Program-made: the position numbers and the translations under genes
Shown: positions 1 to 45,063 of the stretch, piece after piece
Position numbering within the stretch: the stretch's first letter is position 1
Layout of the letters: the number at the start of each line of letters is the position of its first letter
Source: Leptothoe kymatousa TAU-MAC 1615
GTDB taxonomy: Bacteria; Cyanobacteriota; Cyanobacteriia; Phormidesmidales; Phormidesmidaceae
NCBI RefSeq assembly: GCF_018739865.1
Contig: NZ_JADOER010000005.1
Coordinates: 47,431 to 111,430 of the forward strand
Direction: 5' to 3'
Length of the DNA stretch: 64,000 nucleotides
Notes under the pieces: generated by a model
The model's input: the letters and a program-made list of their open reading frames with translations, nothing else
What the model was told of the DNA's origin: nothing
Databases searched by the model: none

Positions 1-395
1 TAGAAGGCCATAGCTCTAGTGTCTTGAGTGTCGCCTTTAGCCCCGATGGCCAAACCATTGCCTCCGCCAGTTCTGACCAAACCGTCAAACTATGGGATCG
101 AAATGGCACCCTCCTCAACACCCTAGAAGGCCATAGCTCTTGGGTCAGGAGTGTCGCCTTTAGCCCCGATGGCCAAACCATTGCCTCCGCCAGTGAGGAC
201 CAAACCGTCAAACTATGGGATCGAAATCTTGATAGGTTAGTAGTTTGGAGTTGTGATTGGTTAAGAGACTATCTGTTAAATAACCCCAATGGACAACAAG
301 CTAGAGAGGACGGTGTATGCCAAGGTTATCTATCTGACAACACTACACCACCAGCAACCCTATTCGGGCAATTTCTCAATTGGATTAGTGGGTAA
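1..395 (+). CDS. WD40 repeat protein, C-terminal fragment
   Basis: Coding continues in from the left edge: the frame is open from base 3, and the first in-frame TTG at 24 lies inside a repeat, so it is not a start. Two near-identical WD40 blades are visible, each with the [15 protein letters not shown] core and ending VKLWDRNG or VKLWDRN. They are followed by a C-terminal tail with CDWLRDYL and NNPN, typical of large cyanobacterial WD40 proteins that often carry NACHT or kinase domains upstream. The DNA of the two blades is almost identical, a sign of recent internal duplication. The N-terminal effector part is outside the window, so function cannot be given; WD40 propellers are usually protein-interaction platforms. 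Confidence 0.9.
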
Positions 396-534
396 GGCAC
401 CTAACGGATCGCAAAAGAGCAGGTAAAACAGAAAGGAACAAACAGAGCCAAGGAAAATTCTCCTCACCATGAAATAATAAGCATAAAGCCCCTCTTCATC
501 AGTACCCACCAATCAAACCCCTCATCGACCCACC

Positions 535-909
535 ATGCCATCAGCCTCTACCCTCGAATCCCGCAACACCCTGATCTATCTTTTCCTAGCCCTACTCATC
601 ATCGACACCATCCTGATCATTCTCTCCCAAGACCTCTGGGCCATCGGCCGCATCATCTTCACCGCCATCATCATGTACTTCGTCCTACAAGGCTACCGCT
701 GGGCCAAATGGATGCTAGTCAGCACTCTTAGCCTCGTCGTCATCGCCCAAGTCGGGTTAATCGCCGCCCTCGGCAATCAGATATCGGCCATTCTCTCCAT
801 CGGCAGCGTCGCCATGGCCATATTGTGCATCATCCTCATGGCCTACCTGGTGGGCAACAATGATTTAAAAAGATATTTTGCCCTAAAACAACAACGTAGG
901 TTGGGTTAA
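535..909 (+). CDS. small multi-pass membrane protein, unknown function
   Basis: Encodes 124 residues with about four hydrophobic segments (near residues 12-32, 36-52, 60-78 and 84-106), so an integral membrane protein. No family is recognised. The last residues, LKQQRRLG, and the stop codon are not native: they are encoded by the first of three MITE-like repeats that begins at about 883. The original C-terminus has therefore been replaced or extended by repeat insertion. The ATG at 535 follows CGACCCACC without a strong ribosome binding site. The gene stands alone between the WD40 gene and the repeats. Confidence 0.6.
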   Translation: MPSASTLESRNTLIYLFLALLIIDTILIILSQDLWAIGRIIFTAIIMYFVLQGYRWAKWMLVSTLSLVVIAQVGLIAALGNQISAILSIGSVAMAILCIILMAYLVGNNDLKRYFALKQQRRLG

Positions 910-1042
910 AACATCACCCAAATCTTCTGCAATTGGTCGATGTTAATTGAAACCCAACATTGCCAGCCCATGGGTTTCGATGGGGCAATAGCGATGATGA
1001 TCGATCGTTGGGTTTCGAACCTCAACCCAACCTACGGTTCTC
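883..1042. repeat. MITE-like repeat copy 1
   Basis: About 160 bp bounded by perfect 13-bp terminal inverted repeats, CGTAGGTTGGGTT (895-907) and AACCCAACCTACG (1024-1036). The interior is shared with copies 2 and 3 (ACCCAACATTGCCA, TTGGGTTTCG blocks) and codes for nothing plausible. It supplies the last codons and stop of the upstream membrane protein gene. Confidence 0.85.
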
Positions 1043-1068
1043 GAAGACCTATTCAACCGCCCTATTGA

Positions 1069-1275
1069 CTAAAACAACAACGTAGGTTGGGTTAAAACAT
1101 CACCCAAATCTTCTGCGATTGGTCGATGTTGCTACAAAACCCAACATTGCCAGCAAAAATAAATATGGGTCTTGCGGCAACACATTGAATGCATCGACCA
1201 CCATGGGTTTCGATGGGGCAATAGCGATGATGATCGATCGTTGGGTTTCGAACCTCAACCCAACCTACGGTTCTC
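1069..1275. repeat. MITE-like repeat copy 2
   Basis: Second copy, with the same 13-bp inverted termini at 1081-1093 and 1257-1269. It is nearly identical to copy 1 on both flanks but carries about 45 extra bases in the middle (around 1150-1200). Short open frames here are produced by the repeat itself and are not genes. Confidence 0.85.
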
Positions 1276-1410
1276 AATCTTCAAATTATTGGAGAATCCG
1301 TCAAAAATATTTCTAACGATTTACGTGACACCTATCCTCAAGTCGAGTGGCGTAAGATCGCGGGCTATTCAACGACACGTAATGGAACCCAACATTGCCA
1401 ACACCACATT

Positions 1411-1609
1411 AAAGCAACAACGTAGGTTGGGTTAAAACATCACCCAAACCTCCTGCTATTCAACGACACGCAATGGAACCCAACATTGCCAACACCCAAA
1501 AACGCTCACCATGGGTTGCGGTAGCGACGGGTTTGGATTGTTGGGTTTCGATAGGTCAATGGCGATGGGTTTCAATTGTTGGGTTTCGGTGACCTCAACC
1601 CAACCTACG
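1411..1609. repeat. MITE-like repeat copy 3
   Basis: Third, more diverged copy with termini at 1421-1433 and 1596-1608. A block beginning CTATTCAACGACACG occurs inside it (about 1459) and also just before it (about 1365), showing internal duplication. It ends only about 5 bp from the ubiA stop codon, so the ubiA transcript runs straight into the repeat. Confidence 0.8.
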
Positions 1610-1614
1610 GAATA

Positions 1615-2496
1615 TTAAACCAACGAGCCGATGATCATTCCGGTCAATAAAACAAAACCGAGAATCACATTTTCACGAAAAATCTGACCATACACATGGG
1701 CAGGCTGGCGAGGGTTGCGCAACTTACGAAAATGGGTAAACCACAACCCACAGGCAATGGCCCAAGTAACAATATATGCAGCGCCCAATGCCTTATACAC
1801 CCCCAGCCACAGCAACAAAATGGCAGTCCCCATAAACAATAGGCCAACAACCTGGGGCGTATTCTTACCAAAAAAGCGCGCGCTAGAATTCACACCCACC
1901 TGCGCATCATATTTGCGATCTGGGATGGCATAGACCGTATCAAACCCTAGGGTCCACAGCAACGTTGCGCCCCACAGCAACCAGGCTGCCGTATCTAGGC
2001 TACCGGTCACCGCACTCCACGGAATCAACACCGCAAACCCCCAGGCAATGGCCAACACTAGCTGAGGCACGGGAAATACGCGCTTGGCTAATGGATAGAG
2101 AATAATGACCGGCGACGCCAACACACACAGCACTAGGCTGAGGGGATTGAGGTAAAGGGCAAAGCCAATGGCGCAGAGAAAGGCCACCACAGCAATGACG
2201 ATGGCTGTTTTTACCGTTAAGGCCCGGGATGCTAGGGGGCGACTGCTGGTGCGCTCTACCTGGGGGTCAATGTTGCGGTCCCATAAATCATTGACCACAC
2301 AACCACCGGCACTGGTGGCCAAGCTGCCCAAAATAATCACCAGCAGCAGCAAGGGCTCGGGCTTGCCATCGGCAGCGACAAATAAGGCCCATAGGGCAGG
2401 AATCATCAAAATCAGACGACCTGTGGGCTTATCCCACCGCATCAGTCGGATAACCGTTTTCCAGGTAGGTTCAACAGCGGGCAAGGACGAAGACAT
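1615..2496 (-). CDS. ubiA: UbiA-family 4-hydroxybenzoate polyprenyltransferase
   Basis: A 293-residue integral membrane prenyltransferase. Both aspartate-rich motifs of the UbiA family are present: NDLWDRNID near residue 68 and DTVYAIPDRKYD near residue 185, which bind the Mg-diphosphate of the prenyl donor. About eight hydrophobic segments are visible. In cyanobacteria this enzyme joins a solanesyl chain to 4-hydroxybenzoate in the plastoquinone pathway; that assignment is from family knowledge. Length is normal. The gene is divergent from pncB, and its stop codon abuts MITE-like repeat copy 3. Confidence 0.92.
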   Translation of the reverse strand: MSSSLPAVEPTWKTVIRLMRWDKPTGRLILMIPALWALFVAADGKPEPLLLLVIILGSLATSAGGCVVNDLWDRNIDPQVERTSSRPLASRALTVKTAIVIAVVAFLCAIGFALYLNPLSLVLCVLASPVIILYPLAKRVFPVPQLVLAIAWGFAVLIPWSAVTGSLDTAAWLLWGATLLWTLGFDTVYAIPDRKYDAQVGVNSSARFFGKNTPQVVGLLFMGTAILLLWLGVYKALGAAYIVTWAIACGLWFTHFRKLRNPRQPAHVYGQIFRENVILGFVLLTGMIIGSLV

Positions 2497-2836
2497 AGTG
2501 CATGTGGAAGGGTCTGTCTTAAGGATATCTTTCTATTTGTCGGCTAGGGAAGGGAATGTGGGGTGGGCACGACCCACCGGCCAGGGGACCAGGGAGAAAG
2601 GAGAGGGATTTGTTGGGGCGAGATCGCACTCACCAGCCAAAATTTTGGTACTAAAAAATATAACTCTGTAATTAAAATCACTTTTCTGCACCATAGCGAC
2701 CGCCACCACCGCCATGGCGTTCTCGACATAAATCAAACTTATCAACGATCGAGTTTGACTATATTTTTGCAAACCATTCGAAATCTGCCCACTTATTTTG
2801 GTTATATTAACCATAACTACCGGGCGATTTCTAATT
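2497..2836. other. divergent intergenic region ubiA/pncB
   Basis: About 340 bp with AT-rich tracts from 2650 on. The one clear element is an inverted repeat TGGTTA-TAT-TAACCA (2799-2813), 23 bp before the preferred pncB start. It could be an operator but nothing in the sequence identifies its protein. No convincing gene is present. Confidence 0.5.
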
Positions 2837-4177
2837 ATGGACAATGCCAGCTTGCAAATACAGCCGGATGAATATGGCCTATTGACCGATTTGTATCAGC
2901 TCACCATGGCCGCCTGCTACGTGGGCGAAGGGTTAGATCAGCGCCGGGCTAGTTTTGAACTGTTTGTGCGCCGCCTGCCGGAGGGCTTTGGCTACCTGAT
3001 TGCGGCGGGTCTAGCGTCTGCCCTAGACTACCTGGACAAGTTTTGCTTTACCCCCGCCCAGCTCGCGGCCCTAAAAGCAACAGGGATTTTTGCCGGGGCC
3101 CCCGCTGACTTTTGGCAATTGCTAGAGTCGGGCAAATTTTCAGGCGATGTGTGGGCGGTCCCCGAAGGCACCGCTATCTTTGCCAATGAGCCCATCCTGC
3201 GGGTGGAAGCCCCCCTGTGGCAGGCGCAAATTGTGGAAACCTATTTGCTCAATGCCATCAATTACCAAACCCTGATTGCCACACGGGCAGCCCGCCTGAG
3301 AGATGTGGCCGGACCCGAGGCAAAACTGTTGGAATTTGGCACTCGCCGCGCCTTTAGCCCCCAGGCATCCCTATGGGCAGCGCGGGCGGCATTAGCCGGA
3401 GGTCTGGATGCCACATCCAATGTGTTGGCAGCCCTAAAGCTGGGGCGCAACCCGGTGGGCACCATGGCCCATGCCCTAGTCATGGCAATCACCGCATTGG
3501 AAGGGAGCGAAGCGGACTCCTTTGAAGCCTTCCACCGCTATTTTCCCGGTGCCGCGTTGCTGATTGATACCTACGACACGATGGCGGCGGCCAAAATGTT
3601 GGGGCAAAACAGGCCGGACCAACTGGCGGGCATCCGGCTAGATTCTGGGGATTTGGTGACGCTGTCGCAGCAGGTACGGCAAGAGCTGCCGGGTATTCCG
3701 ATTTTTGCTAGCGGCGATTTGGATGAACGGGAAATCCTGCGGCTGAAGCAGGCGGGCGCCTGTATCGATGGCTATGGCTTGGGCACCAAACTAGTGACGG
3801 GCAGCCCAGTCAATGGGGTCTACAAGCTGGCCGAAATTGATGGCATCCCGGTGATGAAAGAAGCTAGCGGCAAGCTTACCTATCCAGGGCGGAAACAGAT
3901 TTTTCGCTCGGAACAGGGGGATCGCCTAGGCTTGGCGGATGAAGCCACACCGGCCCATGCGGACGGGTTATTGATGCCGGTGATGCGCCATGGTCAACGG
4001 GTGGTGGCCGATGATAGCCTAGGGCAAATTTGTGCTCGGGCGACTCGTTCCGTCGCCCAGCTACCGGCAACGGCCCGCGATGTGGTGAATCCCATCATTC
4101 CCCAGGCGGAGATTTCCCCAGCCCTACAAAAATTGACGGATTGCACCCGTCGCAGTCAACTCGCTACTGTAAATTGA
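2837..4177 (+). CDS. pncB: nicotinate phosphoribosyltransferase
   Basis: Converts nicotinate plus PRPP to nicotinate mononucleotide, the entry step of the Preiss-Handler route to NAD. I prefer the ATG at 2837 (446 residues), where the family-typical YGLLTDLYQLTMAACY follows quickly; an in-frame start at 2798 would add 13 unconserved residues and overlap the inverted repeat. Recognisable family motifs are FELFVRRLPEGFGY, EFGTRRAFSP, GTMAHALVMA (active-site His), DTYDT, RLDSGDL and GYGLGTKLVT. Length is normal. The pathway continues directly downstream with nadD, a putative NrtR regulator and nadE on the same strand. Confidence 0.93.
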   Translation: MDNASLQIQPDEYGLLTDLYQLTMAACYVGEGLDQRRASFELFVRRLPEGFGYLIAAGLASALDYLDKFCFTPAQLAALKATGIFAGAPADFWQLLESGKFSGDVWAVPEGTAIFANEPILRVEAPLWQAQIVETYLLNAINYQTLIATRAARLRDVAGPEAKLLEFGTRRAFSPQASLWAARAALAGGLDATSNVLAALKLGRNPVGTMAHALVMAITALEGSEADSFEAFHRYFPGAALLIDTYDTMAAAKMLGQNRPDQLAGIRLDSGDLVTLSQQVRQELPGIPIFASGDLDEREILRLKQAGACIDGYGLGTKLVTGSPVNGVYKLAEIDGIPVMKEASGKLTYPGRKQIFRSEQGDRLGLADEATPAHADGLLMPVMRHGQRVVADDSLGQICARATRSVAQLPATARDVVNPIIPQAEISPALQKLTDCTRRSQLATVN

Positions 4178-4307
4178 GCTTTCCGTGGGATATGGCCAGC
4201 GCTGCATTGCGAAAGATATCGATCTGGACCAAGGTCAATGGCTCAATTATTGAGTGCAATTGAGGCAATCTTTGCAAAATCAGTAATTCTCCCTAAGCAG
4301 TCAGGAT

Positions 4308-4976
4308 ATGGCAAATATAAATACATTGATGAGAAACGTCTCTACTTTGCAATCACCTGTGACCATTCGCTCTGTTAGGACAACCCATGTGGCGCTTTTT
4401 GGCACTAGCGCGGACCCTCCCCACAATGGCCATCGCAGCATTGTGGCCACCCTGGGCCATCAGTTTGACTATGTGGCGGTGTGGGCATCGGACAATCCGT
4501 GGAAACGGGATCAGTCCCCCATTGCTATGCGCATGGATATGTTGGAACTTGCGATCGCAGATTTGCACACCCCCGGCACCATCCAGCTCCATCGCGAGCT
4601 CAGCCACCCCTACACAGCCGTTACCCTAGAGCGGGCCCGACGCCTCTGGCCCCAGGCCGAATTTACCTTTGTGATCGGGGCCGATTTGGTCAAACAGCTC
4701 CCCAACTGGCATCGTTCCGCCGATGTGATCCAATGGGCCAATATCTTGGTATTTCCCCGACCGGGCTATGACCTCCAAGACACCGACCTAACAGAGCTGC
4801 GATCCCACGGTGCCCAGGTTGCGATCGCCACCCCCCTCAGCCAGCACCACATCTCATCGAGCACCCTGCGCCAGGGCTGCCCAGAACAGCCGGACGAAAT
4901 TCCTACTGTCGTGCAGGCCTACATTCATCAAAACAACCTCTACCCATGCCCGGAAAACACCCCGACCACCCCTTAG
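4308..4976 (+). CDS. nadD: nicotinate-nucleotide adenylyltransferase
   Basis: Adenylylates nicotinate mononucleotide to deamido-NAD. The nucleotidyltransferase motif GTSADPPHNGH occurs at about residues 32-42, and the ISSSTLR signature (family ISSTxIR) near the C-terminus. The 222-residue product is slightly long at the N-terminus: conserved sequence begins only at about residue 28, so the internal ATG at 4329 is an alternative start. The 3' end overlaps the next gene by 31 bp, indicating co-transcription and probably translational coupling with the regulator. Confidence 0.9.
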   Translation: MANINTLMRNVSTLQSPVTIRSVRTTHVALFGTSADPPHNGHRSIVATLGHQFDYVAVWASDNPWKRDQSPIAMRMDMLELAIADLHTPGTIQLHRELSHPYTAVTLERARRLWPQAEFTFVIGADLVKQLPNWHRSADVIQWANILVFPRPGYDLQDTDLTELRSHGAQVAIATPLSQHHISSSTLRQGCPEQPDEIPTVVQAYIHQNNLYPCPENTPTTP

Positions 4977-5668
4977 CAGACTTTAAGGTAGGCATTGACA
5001 ACGTCATCTTCTCGGTGGATACCGAACAACACCGACTGTTGGTGCTCTTGGTGATGCGCCACGAAGACCCCTTTATTGGCCAATGGTCCCTCCCGGGCAC
5101 CCTGGTCCGTCAAGGAGAATCCCTGGAAACGGCATCCTACCGAGTGCTATCCGAAAAGATTCGTGTCAACAACCTCTATGTGGAACAGCTTTATTCCTTT
5201 GGCGGTCCCAAGCGAGATCCCCGCGAAGCTGAACATGCATACAACGTGCGCTACCTCTCCGTTAGCTACTTCGCCCTGGTGCGCTTTGCCGAAGCCGAGC
5301 TCATTGCCGACGGCGTCAGTGGCATTGCCTGGTACCCCCTCAATCAGCTACCAGAGCTCGCCTTTGACCACGAAGAAATTCTCACCTATGGCACCCTGCG
5401 CCTGCGCAACAAGGTGAAATATAGCCCGGTGGTGTTTGATATCCTGCCAGAAATGTTCACCCTCAGCGATCTCTATCAGCTGTATATCACGATCCTGGGG
5501 GACGATTTCTCCGACTATTCCAACTTTCGCACCCGATTGTTAAAGCTAGGCTTTTTGAAAGATACGGGCATTAAAACATCCCGAGGCGCCGGGCGTCCGG
5601 CCAGCCTCTACCGATTTGAAGCGGATGCCTTCGAACCCCTTAAAGACAAGCCCATGGTATTTGTTTAA
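4946..5668 (+). CDS. nrtR: NrtR-type Nudix-domain transcriptional regulator
   Basis: A 240-residue protein with an N-terminal Nudix-like domain (about 10-145) and a C-terminal winged helix (about 155-235) ending in RGAGRPASLYRF, as in NrtR repressors of NAD biosynthesis. NrtR senses ADP-ribose. The Nudix box is degenerate: the second Gly is Thr (SLPGTLVRQGES) and the catalytic Arg-Glu pair reads RVLSEK, so hydrolysis is unlikely and the domain probably only binds ligand. It starts inside nadD and lies 89 bp upstream of nadE, the context expected for a regulator of this cluster. Regulation of these genes is inferred, not seen. Confidence 0.85.
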   Translation: MPGKHPDHPLADFKVGIDNVIFSVDTEQHRLLVLLVMRHEDPFIGQWSLPGTLVRQGESLETASYRVLSEKIRVNNLYVEQLYSFGGPKRDPREAEHAYNVRYLSVSYFALVRFAEAELIADGVSGIAWYPLNQLPELAFDHEEILTYGTLRLRNKVKYSPVVFDILPEMFTLSDLYQLYITILGDDFSDYSNFRTRLLKLGFLKDTGIKTSRGAGRPASLYRFEADAFEPLKDKPMVFV

Positions 5669-5757
5669 GGCTATTTTTCTTCCCTGCCTCGCGGGCCCCC
5701 AACCAACCAACTTCATGGTGGGCTATCCCCACCCTCCGTTCTTACATTCAATCTCTT

Positions 5758-7485
5758 ATGAAACTTGCTATTGCTCAACTTAACCCTACGGTGGGAGATC
5801 TCAAAGGGAATGCCCAAAAGATTTTGGCAACGGCCAAGGCGGCCGCAGCACAAGGGGCAAACCTCTTATTAACTCCAGAACTTTCCCTCTGTGGCTACCC
5901 GCCACGGGATCTCCTACTGCGTCCTGGATTTATTCAACAAATACAGACCACCCTGGAACAACTTGCCCAGGATCTCCCCCCCGGCATAGAAGCGCTCGTC
6001 GGGGCAGCCCAACCTAATGTTAACGCGGCAAAAAAAGGCCAAAAGCCCCTCTATAACAGCATGGCGCTATTGGGCCACGGCAAGGTCAAGGCCATCTTCC
6101 ACAAGCGCCTGTTACCCACCTACGATGTATTTGATGAAGATCGTTATTTTGAGTCGGGAACAACGCCCAATCACTTTCACCTAGAAGCGGGTGATCAGGT
6201 ACTCCACATTGGCGTCACCATTTGCGAAGACCTGTGGAATGAGGATGACTTCTGGGGTGAGCGCACCTATGAGGTCAACCCAACCGCTGAGGTGGTCGCC
6301 GCCGGTGTGGATTTGGTGGTGAATTTATCCGCCTCCCCTTTCACCGTCGGCAAACAAGCACTACGGGAAAAGATGATTGCCCACGCAGTGCAACAGCATG
6401 ATTGCCCGATTATCTACGTTAACCAGGTGGGCAGTAACGACGATCTGATTTTTGATGGCTGCAGTGTGGCCATCAATCGCCAGGGCCAGGTGGTCAATCG
6501 CGCCCCTGGCTTTGTCCCCAGCCTGCACGTCCTCGACTATGGCGCCCCTCAGCAGGATCTATCGCCGGGCACCATTACCCCACTGCTAGATAGCCCAGAG
6601 GCTGAAATGTGGTCGGCCTTGGTTTTGGGCGTCAAGGACTACAGCCAAAAATGTGGCTTTAGCAAAGCCGTCATTGGCCTGAGCGGTGGCATTGATTCGG
6701 CCCTGGTGGCTGCGATCGCAGCCGCAGCCCTCGGCCCCGACCAGGTGCTCGGCGTGCTGATGCCCTCCCCCTATAGCTCCGACCATTCCATTAGCGATGC
6801 CGAAAAATTAGCCCACAATTTGGGCATCCACACCCAAACGCTGCCCATTGGCAACCTCATGGCCGGTTTTGACCACACCTTTGCCACCCTGTTTGCCGAC
6901 ACCGCCCCCGGTGTCACCGAAGAAAACCTCCAGTCTCGCATTCGTGGCAACCTGCTCATGGCCATCGCCAATAAGTTCGGCCACCTGCTACTTTCCACCG
7001 GCAACAAATCGGAAATGGCCGTCGGCTACTGCACCCTCTACGGCGACATGAACGGGGGCCTAGCCGTAATTGCCGATGTCCCTAAAACCAAGGTTTATGG
7101 CCTGTGCCAGTGGCTCAACCAAAGCGTCCAAACCAACGGTGCCCTGGGGGCAATCGAAAGCCAAGGCAAAACCGAAATTATCCCCAACAATATTCTCACC
7201 AAACCCCCCAGCGCCGAGCTCCGCCCCGACCAAGTCGATCAAGACTCCCTCCCCCCCTATGACATTTTGGACGACATCTTAGAAAGATTAATTCAACAAC
7301 ATCAATCCGCCGCTGATATTGTTGCTGCGGGCCATCCAGAAGCTGTCGTCAATCGAGTCATTCGCCTACTCACTCGAGCCGAATTTAAACGCAGACAGGC
7401 GCCCCCCGTCCTCAAGGTCACCGATCGTGCCTTTGGCCTCGGCTGGCGGATGCCCATTGCCAGTCGCTGGTCATTAACAAACTAG
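5758..7485 (+). CDS. nadE: glutamine-dependent NAD+ synthetase
   Basis: Amidates deamido-NAD to NAD using glutamine and ATP. The 575-residue product has an N-terminal nitrilase-type glutaminase (about 1-265) with the Glu-Lys-Cys triad visible as E41 (TPELSLCGYPP), K116 (FHKRLLPTYD) and C156 (TICEDLWN). A C-terminal ATP-pyrophosphatase domain carries SGGIDSAL near residue 308. Length is that of the two-domain form. It completes the pncB-nadD-nadE pathway. The last codons (SRWSLTN and stop) fall in the first copy of a 52-bp tandem duplication, so the extreme C-terminus may be repeat-derived. Confidence 0.95.
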   Translation: MKLAIAQLNPTVGDLKGNAQKILATAKAAAAQGANLLLTPELSLCGYPPRDLLLRPGFIQQIQTTLEQLAQDLPPGIEALVGAAQPNVNAAKKGQKPLYNSMALLGHGKVKAIFHKRLLPTYDVFDEDRYFESGTTPNHFHLEAGDQVLHIGVTICEDLWNEDDFWGERTYEVNPTAEVVAAGVDLVVNLSASPFTVGKQALREKMIAHAVQQHDCPIIYVNQVGSNDDLIFDGCSVAINRQGQVVNRAPGFVPSLHVLDYGAPQQDLSPGTITPLLDSPEAEMWSALVLGVKDYSQKCGFSKAVIGLSGGIDSALVAAIAAAALGPDQVLGVLMPSPYSSDHSISDAEKLAHNLGIHTQTLPIGNLMAGFDHTFATLFADTAPGVTEENLQSRIRGNLLMAIANKFGHLLLSTGNKSEMAVGYCTLYGDMNGGLAVIADVPKTKVYGLCQWLNQSVQTNGALGAIESQGKTEIIPNNILTKPPSAELRPDQVDQDSLPPYDILDDILERLIQQHQSAADIVAAGHPEAVVNRVIRLLTRAEFKRRQAPPVLKVTDRAFGLGWRMPIASRWSLTN

Positions 7486-7568
7486 CCACCAGGCTAAACA
7501 AAAAGGACCAGCCAGCCGCTGGTCATCAACAAACTAGCCACCAGGCTAAACAAAAAAGACCAGCCAGC
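7465..7568. repeat. 52-bp tandem duplication with nested hairpins
   Basis: Two copies (7465-7516 and 7517-7568) differ at two bases. Each contains GCTGGTC and GACCAGC at its ends and an inner TAGCC-ACCA-GGCTA hairpin followed by an A-rich run. The first copy includes the end of nadE. It may act as a 3' end or terminator structure, but lacks a plus-strand T-run. Confidence 0.75.
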
Positions 7569-7985
7569 CTCAGCACCATGACAAAAACAACACATCCCAG
7601 GCCCGTAACTTCACAAATTTAGTATCGACTTGTAACAACCATTACGCCCTTGAAATGCAACCTTAAAATTCTTTGAAGGCAGTTCCATAACAGCCCTAGA
7701 AAGAAACGTATTATTTGATACCAATGGTGGGCAGCCGCCTCGTCAATTACTCTGAACATTTCAGCCCAGCATCCGGGCTTTGGCCCCTGCTCAAAAATCC
7801 CTACATCGCCTGGGGAATAAAAGATCGGCCACACCCAACCCAAAAACTTTCAACTCCAAAAAGTGAAGGCCCATAATTGGTATCACTGAATACTCAATTC
7901 CCCAGGTGTACAAACAATTGGACGCCAGCCACCCTAAAACCACTCATATAAAATAAGGCCCAGAACGTTTTGCGATGTTAGAACA
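7569..7985. other. intergenic region without recognisable gene
   Basis: About 420 bp after the nadE tandem repeat. A 74-codon minus-strand frame (7619-7843) has aberrant, Trp-rich composition and no ribosome binding site, so it is not called. Nothing else is recognised. Confidence 0.4.
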
Positions 7986-42249: not shown

Positions 42250-42280
42250 AGCACTTTAGAGCTTAAATTATCCTGATTAG

Positions 42281-42314
42281 CTCCTATTCCAGGGAAACCT
42301 GGAGTAGGAGTTTT
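42281..42314 (+). terminator. pntB terminator
   Basis: A 13-bp stem with one T-G pair, CTCCTATTCCAGG and CCTGGAGTAGGAG, closing a GAAA tetraloop, followed by TTTT. About 30 bp after the pntB stop. Confidence 0.9.
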
Positions 42315-42355: not shown

Positions 42356-43741
42356 ATGAATACTATTATTCTTCAGTGTAATGAAAGAGATGAGCCTGAT
42401 GTTAGAGAATGGATTAAAGAAGTACAAACCGAATTGAATGAGGGCCGCTCTTTATACTACTGTTCATGGAGTTGTGGCAAAGTACGTAAAGTTCAAGTAG
42501 GCGATCGTTTTTTTCTACAACGCACCGGGAACGGACCTCGTGGATATTTTGCTTCTGGTTATGTAATAGATGCGCTGCCAGAAGAACAACTCAAACTTCA
42601 AGACTCTAACTATTCAAAGTTAAGTGCAGCCTATCTCACAGCTTTTTATGGCGATTCATTTAAAATTTGCCTTGAGATTGATACGATTATTGACTTTGAT
42701 CAACCACTTAAAATTGACTATCTACAATCACTTCCTGCCTTTTCAGGGTGTGAATTTAGGCGCTATGGCAGCGGCACAGCTTTTAATCCTAGTTACACTG
42801 AAGAACTTGAAAAAGAATGGGATAGTTACTCTGCAAACCTCGCACCTCAAAAACTAGCAACAAGGTTGATTGATAGCCTATGTAAAAAAGCTGCCACGGC
42901 ACGCAGAGAAAAAGATTTTAATAAAGCGCAGCAGTTATATTTTGAAGCTATTCAAGTATCTGAAAGATCTTTGATGGCCTGGAGAGGTCTAGCTGAGACA
43001 GCTAGAGAACTGGATGAATGCGATATTGCTCTTGAAGCATATGGTCAAGCTATTAATCTTGCCACAGACAAACATATTTTGTATCTAAATCGGGGAAAAG
43101 TTTTTGCACAAATGCATCGCCTCAAAGAGGCTGAAAATGACTGGACTGAAGCAGTGCGTCTGCTGCCTAAATTAGCTATTGAAGTCGAGAAACTTAGACA
43201 AAGCTTCAAGCAAAATAACCCTGAGAAACAACATCAAGAGAAAAATGAATTAGGTGTAAATCCTCCAGAACCTATTAATAACAGCCCGCAAAAACTTACT
43301 CCTAATGAGGTGGAGGCTTATAACAGTTTAAAAAATCTTCCAGAGAGGTATAGAAAGGCCATCACTACAATCAGAATTGGACAAGAATCCTTTAGAAAAA
43401 ATTTACTAGAGTTCTGGGAAACTTGTGCAGTCACAAAATGTAGCACCCATAAGTTACTTATAGCATCACACATTAAACCTTGGTCTAAATCGAACGACAA
43501 GGAAAAACTAGATAAGTTTAACGGCCTATTATTAGTCCCCTCGCTCGACAAAGCTTTTGATAAAGGCTACATATCTTTTGATAATACGGGGAAAATTATC
43601 ATTTCTCCTTCTCTGAGTGATGAAGATGCCCAAACATTGGGAATTGACAAGAAATTACAGCTTCAAAAAATAGATGTTAGGCATCAGGATTACCTCGAAT
43701 ACCACCGCACTCACATCTTCAAATCAATAAAGAAGTGGTGA
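42356..43741 (+). CDS. EVE-like / TPR / HNH nuclease, candidate modification-dependent restriction enzyme
   Basis: A 461-residue protein of three parts. Residues 1-160 resemble the EVE/PUA-like fold that reads modified bases: WSCGKVRKVQVGDRFFLQR, GPRGYFASGYVI and GTAFNPSYTEELEKEW follow its usual order. Residues about 165-280 look like TPR helices (AQQLYFEAIQVSERSLMAWRG, ALEAYGQAINLATD). Residues 317-445 are an HNH domain: CAVTKCSTHKLLIASHIKPW with H372, then FNGLLLVPSLDKAFDKGYISF. EVE-HNH and related SRA-HNH proteins cut DNA with modified cytosines; the TPR between them is unusual. The gene is AT-richer than its neighbours, suggesting transfer. It has no adjacent methylase, as expected of a type IV enzyme. 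Confidence 0.82.
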   Translation: MNTIILQCNERDEPDVREWIKEVQTELNEGRSLYYCSWSCGKVRKVQVGDRFFLQRTGNGPRGYFASGYVIDALPEEQLKLQDSNYSKLSAAYLTAFYGDSFKICLEIDTIIDFDQPLKIDYLQSLPAFSGCEFRRYGSGTAFNPSYTEELEKEWDSYSANLAPQKLATRLIDSLCKKAATARREKDFNKAQQLYFEAIQVSERSLMAWRGLAETARELDECDIALEAYGQAINLATDKHILYLNRGKVFAQMHRLKEAENDWTEAVRLLPKLAIEVEKLRQSFKQNNPEKQHQEKNELGVNPPEPINNSPQKLTPNEVEAYNSLKNLPERYRKAITTIRIGQESFRKNLLEFWETCAVTKCSTHKLLIASHIKPWSKSNDKEKLDKFNGLLLVPSLDKAFDKGYISFDNTGKIIISPSLSDEDAQTLGIDKKLQLQKIDVRHQDYLEYHRTHIFKSIKKW

Positions 43742-44496: not shown

Positions 44497-45063
44497 ATGA
44501 CAGTTGCCCAGCAACGACTCACCCTAGCCGATTACCTCGCCTACGAGGCCCCCACAGAAAAACGCTACGAACTGGTTAACGGAGAGTTAATCGAAATGCC
44601 CGCTGAAAGCGACCTCAATCAGCGCATCGCCATGTTTCTGCTAGCCTATTTCCTAAAGCAAGGCACGCCCCATTATTGCCTCAGAATCGGCCTAGAAATT
44701 GCAGTCAGCGGCACCCTGGCCACCGTCCGACTGCCCGACTTAGCCATTCTGTCAGAGGATGCGGCCCTCGCCCTCGAAGGAGCGAACCGCTCTATTATCA
44801 CCTACGACATGCCCCCACCCCAGCTCGTGATCGAAGTCGTAAGCCCCGGCCAAGCAAATCGCGACTATCGCCACAAACGCTCTGAATACGCCGCACGAGG
44901 CATAAGTGAATATTGGATTATAGACCCCAGCGATAAGCAAGTAACCATTTTAGTTTGGACCGATGGCCTATACGAAGGCACCATATTTCGTGGAGAGCAA
45001 CCACTAAAATCGACGCTATTGAGCGACATAAATTTAACTGCCGCTCAGGTCCTGGCAGGGTAA
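44497..45063 (+). CDS. Uma2-family (DUF820) predicted restriction-like endonuclease
   Basis: A 188-residue protein with the DUF820/Uma2 pattern: TLADYLAYEAP, YELVNGELIEMPAES, VRLPDLAILSED, PPQLVIEVVSPGQANRDYRHKRSEYAARGISEYWIIDP region, with the PD-(D/E)xK-type active site (Asp of PDLA, Glu of IEVVS, Lys of HKR). The family is greatly expanded in cyanobacteria and its physiological role is largely unknown. Confidence 0.88.
   Translation: MTVAQQRLTLADYLAYEAPTEKRYELVNGELIEMPAESDLNQRIAMFLLAYFLKQGTPHYCLRIGLEIAVSGTLATVRLPDLAILSEDAALALEGANRSIITYDMPPPQLVIEVVSPGQANRDYRHKRSEYAARGISEYWIIDPSDKQVTILVWTDGLYEGTIFRGEQPLKSTLLSDINLTAAQVLAG

Follow-up and report, generated by a model that had tools for sequence, protein, structure and literature searches.

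A predicted type IV-like DNA endonuclease of EVE-TPR-HNH architecture encoded by a strain-specific insert in the cyanobacterium Leptothoe kymatousa TAU-MAC 1615

The described system closest to the protein studied here is VcaM4I, an EVE-HNH modification-dependent restriction endonuclease of 309 residues in which an N-terminal EVE fold is connected to a C-terminal HNH nuclease by a short helical linker. Its residues H224, D250 and D254 are required for activity, and N241 is structural, its exchange having a mild effect (PMC7897488). The HNH domain of VcaM4I is a toxic nuclease on its own that is silenced by the inter-domain helix, and the base-flipping pocket is made up of P24, W82 and Y130. 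Bell, Wolf and Koonin 2020 (PMC7641849) carried out a survey of EVE-HNH and EVE-PD-(D/E)XK fusions. In its main text EVE is the domain that gives predicted type IV enzymes their specificity, the same role that is predicted here, whereas the terms TPR, tetratricopeptide, DUF3883 and cyanobacteria are absent from that main text. In the literature searched, EVE, TPR, HNH and restriction endonuclease do not come together in any one paper, and EVE domain together with tetratricopeptide leads only to the CoCoNuTs papers, with a single mention of each term.

The window under analysis is a stretch of 64,000 nucleotides from the genome of L. kymatousa TAU-MAC 1615, and the gene of interest within it is initiated by its own ATG, as an earlier note based on the sequence had claimed, with no longer frame upstream (Table 1). 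The three domains and their order proposed in that note are borne out, TPR and HNH by Pfam and EVE by the AlphaFold fold and by relatives, and the EVE and HNH motifs that it quoted were all located, with WSCGK at residue 38, GYFASGYV at 63, ASHIKPW at 370 and FNGLLL at 388. A full-length model computed without an alignment reached a pLDDT of 42.6 and was discarded. Taken together with the described fusions, the enzyme is most likely new in architecture and known in kind.

Table 1 Coordinates of the EVE-TPR-HNH gene, its domains and the upstream hairpin in the window
Feature	Positions	Strand	Basis
Whole EVE-TPR-HNH gene (461 aa)	42356..43741	+	Pfam, PDB match, AlphaFold model
EVE/PUA-fold domain at the N-terminus (residues 1-165), predicted to read modified bases	42356..42850	+	AlphaFold, structure matches, Pfam EVE in relatives
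TPR region, about residues 172-272	42869..43171	+	Pfam TPR_1; phmmer to consensus TPR proteins
Polar linker, about residues 273-315, TPR to HNH	43172..43300	+	Sequence; no confident fold in single-sequence model
HNH nuclease domain, residues 316-461	43301..43738	+	Pfam HNH_2, VcaM4I alignment
Hairpin of pntB resembling a terminator, ahead of the EVE-TPR-HNH gene	42279..42312	+	Fold; comparable hairpins in relatives

The C-terminal domain was the most readily recognized. Pfam HNH_2 matched it at 3.7e-12, above the cut-off, PADLOC HNH models matched at up to 2.4e-27, and alignment with the VcaM4I structure (PDB 6yex) gave an E-value of 2.3e-23, in which H372, N389, D398 and D402 align with H224, N241, D250 and D254 of VcaM4I. 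The HNH domain claimed earlier can thus be specified as a domain of VcaM4I type with all four assigned active-site residues intact. In the HNH tree the protein falls together with VcaM4I and plasmid-borne HNH proteins in a group of seven rows (support 100/97), outside of which lie all other EVE-TPR-HNH proteins, while the EVE tree pairs it with a relative that ends after the TPR segment (L051; 100/99). By these placements EVE-TPR was joined to HNH at least twice, unless one HNH domain replaced another. On the Pseudomonas aeruginosa plasmid pPAG5 (L152), a VcaM4I-type HNH gene has as neighbours the genes for a DNA methyltransferase and a type I specificity subunit, and an overlapping upstream ORF there suggests a longer, frameshifted protein.

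Recognition of the N-terminal domain relied on its fold. Pfam EVE (PF01878) gave no match to the protein at E 5; among relatives in the same alignment (A1), L077 scored 4e-5, above the cut-off, and L066 (0.0023) and L078 (0.0048) both fell below it. An AlphaFold model of residues 1-170, computed from an alignment of 20 relatives from genome contigs (A4), reached a mean pLDDT of 88 and a pTM of 0.85; its strands follow one another as in a PUA barrel, with a five-stranded core (3-8, 34-41, 51-56, 63-70 and 102-112). EVE domains are set apart from ASCH, YTH and PUA domains by an extra strand that follows the core and lies beside strand 1. The model holds a short strand at 140-142 after the core, a candidate for this extra strand. 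Foldseek returned four matches at E < 0.001, namely 2ar1, 2eve, 2g2x and 2p5d, and VIA-align ranked 2ar1 (Z 11.2), 2eve (10.1) and 1zce (9.9) first, followed by 2gbs, 2g2x and THYN1, all ahead of YTH. The YTH (m6A) domains reached Z scores of up to 9.4, so that the top EVE structure leads by about 2 Z units with overlapping ranges, and the EVE domain of VcaM4I scored 8.8 over 115 residues, only about 12% identical to ours on the structural alignment. A profile search of the PDB with A1, to which classical EVE-HNH rows had been added, yielded two matches altogether, weak and both to EVE proteins, and no match came from the narrow alignment A2; the invariant EVE positions are kept in the aligned protein. 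The fold search of roughly the first 165 residues that the earlier note had proposed therefore led to EVE proteins (2ar1, 2eve) as best PDB matches, on a confident model and not on a domain foreign to the PUA/EVE fold. On the strength of this model and of the Pfam matches of relatives, EVE is the best assignment for the N-terminal domain. A similar fold is no proof that a base is bound, and as YTH scores nearly level with EVE, more than one class of ligand is possible. In BFVD, the best fold match of the EVE model was A0A8S5TSM2 of Podoviridae sp. ctARy1 (E 2.5e-7, TMq 0.59), which bears the label (p)ppGpp synthetase, a label that may be wrong.

Combining an EVE fold with a VcaM4I-type HNH domain whose residues are intact, we consider it probable that the protein is a stand-alone, NTP-independent, modification-dependent DNA endonuclease of type IV-like kind, which is the best reading; a type IV-like enzyme had also been put forward from the sequence. 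In its favour count, too, the recurrence of the domain order in ten other cyanobacterial genomes, the type I RM operon around relative L066, the plasmid relative in Tolypothrix and the AT-richness, all described below. The protein would most likely serve in defence, against DNA with phage-like chemical modifications. Incoming DNA would be read by the EVE domain, which would flip a modified base and hold it, and the HNH domain, probably dimeric like that of VcaM4I, would then introduce a double-strand break. The position of the inter-domain helix of VcaM4I is occupied here by the TPR segment and the polar linker, and the TPR segment would stand in place of that auto-inhibitory helix, most likely determining how far reader and nuclease are kept apart and how tightly they are restrained, with partner binding as a possible further role.

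The TPR segment is the part that departs from the described fusions. Pfam TPR_1 matched at 2.7e-8 with 33.7 bits against a cut-off of 27.8, and phmmer with this region matched consensus TPR proteins. Among relatives the domain order is constant and the number of TPRs runs from one to several, a variation with which, besides the partner recruitment or oligomerisation suggested in the earlier note, a simple spacer or regulatory linker may also be reconciled. Typically, TPRs bind peptides or proteins, and a partner-dependent effector deserves to be weighed, in which a host or phage protein bound by the TPR would release the nuclease, instead of or together with EVE, and lead to abortive infection. 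The larger TPR numbers of L051, L055 and L058 lean in this direction, and regulated release is made plausible by the silent state in which the VcaM4I HNH is kept. However, only one TPR is recognizable in the Nostoc-type EVE-TPR-HNH proteins, which offers little surface for a partner, and a comparison of relatives brought up no conserved neighbouring gene that might specify a dedicated partner, the neighbours that recur having the appearance of housekeeping genes of the host. We regard such an effector as unlikely.

As for the base that a modification-dependent endonuclease of this kind might read, no C5-cytosine methyltransferase match was found in the genome from which the window comes (about 75% complete), so that a reader of 5mC need not attack its host, and a broad 5mC reader is possible for our protein. 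A second genome with an EVE-TPR-HNH gene (G154) carries at least six full-length C5-methyltransferase genes, which argues against unrestricted cutting of 5mC at least in that branch, where a broad 5mC reader is unlikely.

The composition and position of the gene reveal its origin. With a GC content of 0.384 and a GC3 of 0.304, compared with means of 0.533 and 0.568 in the 44 other ORFs of the window, it has the lowest GC of all 45 (z -5.9), so that the AT-richness noticed earlier is real and extreme. In related genomes pntB and two genes named from their sequences as DUF218-like and VKOR-like follow in the same order without the EVE-TPR-HNH gene, and the stretch from pntB to the DUF218-like gene varies among them. 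The gene is a foreign insert, strain-specific and recently acquired, in agreement with the transferred cassette that had been proposed. The terminator claimed ahead of it is present as a hairpin of 15 pairs followed by TTTT; hairpins occur 3' of pntB in some relatives too, and a simple terminator scan missed this one, probably owing to its short T run. No target-site duplication or flanking repeat was found that would point to an insertion mechanism, Rfam returned nothing, and, as a point against a restriction enzyme, the flanks hold no classical defence genes with the exception of a gene for a Uma2-family putative restriction endonuclease (44497-45063, plus strand; Pfam 1.4e-32, PADLOC PDC-S03), which stands in a stretch that is variable between relatives. 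A strain-specific gene for which a consensus scan detected no promoter above chance, and of which a Nostoc relative is frame-disrupted (L118), could be a decayed or non-functional cassette on its way out; yet the frame is open at full length and the catalytic residues and invariant EVE positions are kept, and we give this reading hardly any credence.

The architecture proved not to be singular, as the wording of the earlier note could be taken to mean: the homologue search recovered the same three-domain order in at least ten other cyanobacterial genomes (L066, L068, L071, L072, L073, L113, L114, L115, L116 and L120), along with the frame-disrupted copy mentioned above, and a one-off unique architecture is ruled out by these relatives. 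The EVE part is present in 45 of the 390 genomes of the class that were searched, and a scan of the genomes of 84,980 species with two peptide patterns, which limit its sensitivity, returned 34 loci, all cyanobacterial. No relative was found in viral contigs with four EVE queries, and among plasmid and phage proteins the EVE part was met on one Tolypothrix plasmid only, the matches listed being otherwise to the HNH part alone. The EVE-TPR front end is also joined to NOV_C/DUF3883, to coiled coils or to nothing: EVE-TPR-NOV_C occurs in L065 and on the Tolypothrix plasmid (L151), EVE-TPR by itself in L051 and EVE alone in L067 and L070. In the Pseudanabaena form (L091-L112 and relatives), EVE-TPR is followed by a coiled coil and a NOV_C-like end. 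L151 has an intact ExK motif (VEIK), whereas every aligned Pseudanabaena row carries V or I in place of its Glu, which suggests that this end may be a disabled nuclease. These proteins apparently constitute an undescribed, small cyanobacterial family in which one putative sensing front end is combined with different cutting domains.

The Pseudanabaena proteins, resident with host-like GC and lacking the ExK Glu, are what lends some weight to a housekeeping or regulatory EVE protein, acting in DNA repair or in RNA or base metabolism, whose HNH domain would have another role; EVE proteins also occur in non-defence contexts (PMC7641849). Against it speak the intact, VcaM4I-type HNH domain, the nature of the gene as a strain-specific AT-rich insert and the setting of relative L066, and we hold it to be quite improbable. 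In L066 the genes hsdM-hsdS-EVE-TPR-HNH-hsdR run on one strand (373-7772) as a type I RM operon, in which the gene lies between hsdS and hsdR at distances of about 21 and 51 bp, which is what the proposed inspection of neighbourhoods brought to light in this one relative. Operons of RM or BREX systems are known to harbour type IV genes, an arrangement to which L066 conforms, whereas the gene in our window is solitary. The L151 plasmid (Tolypothrix sp. PCC 7712 plasmid unnamed13) is mobilizable; a site-specific integrase follows immediately on its EVE-TPR-NOV_C gene, which lies about 1.4 kb from a gene for a DNA cytosine methyltransferase. At most Nostoc-type loci the neighbours resemble housekeeping genes. 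Among the relatives measured, AT content exceeds that of the surroundings in the ten with HNH and in both NOV_C forms (L065 and L151) and does not do so in L051, L055, L058 and L090, these rows not being independent; AT-richness of our gene and of the relatives with HNH or an intact-looking NOV_C is as expected of mobile defence genes.

Overall, these observations permit a tentative picture, somewhat short of even odds, in which EVE-TPR would be a common sensor front end with exchangeable nucleases (two HNH branches and NOV_C), the armed forms being mobile as AT-rich defence cassettes and the form without the ExK Glu being domesticated in Pseudanabaena, possibly as a non-cutting sensor of modified nucleic acid. 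With the predicted endonuclease, single-protein type IV enzymes would come to include one whose reader and cutter are separated by a repeat module, and this in a phylum whose EVE-type restriction has been little described. The natural series of forms with one TPR, with several, with different nucleases and with none or a disabled one suits the study of reader-nuclease coupling, and on the practical side such enzymes may matter as a block to the transformation of cyanobacteria with methylated DNA.
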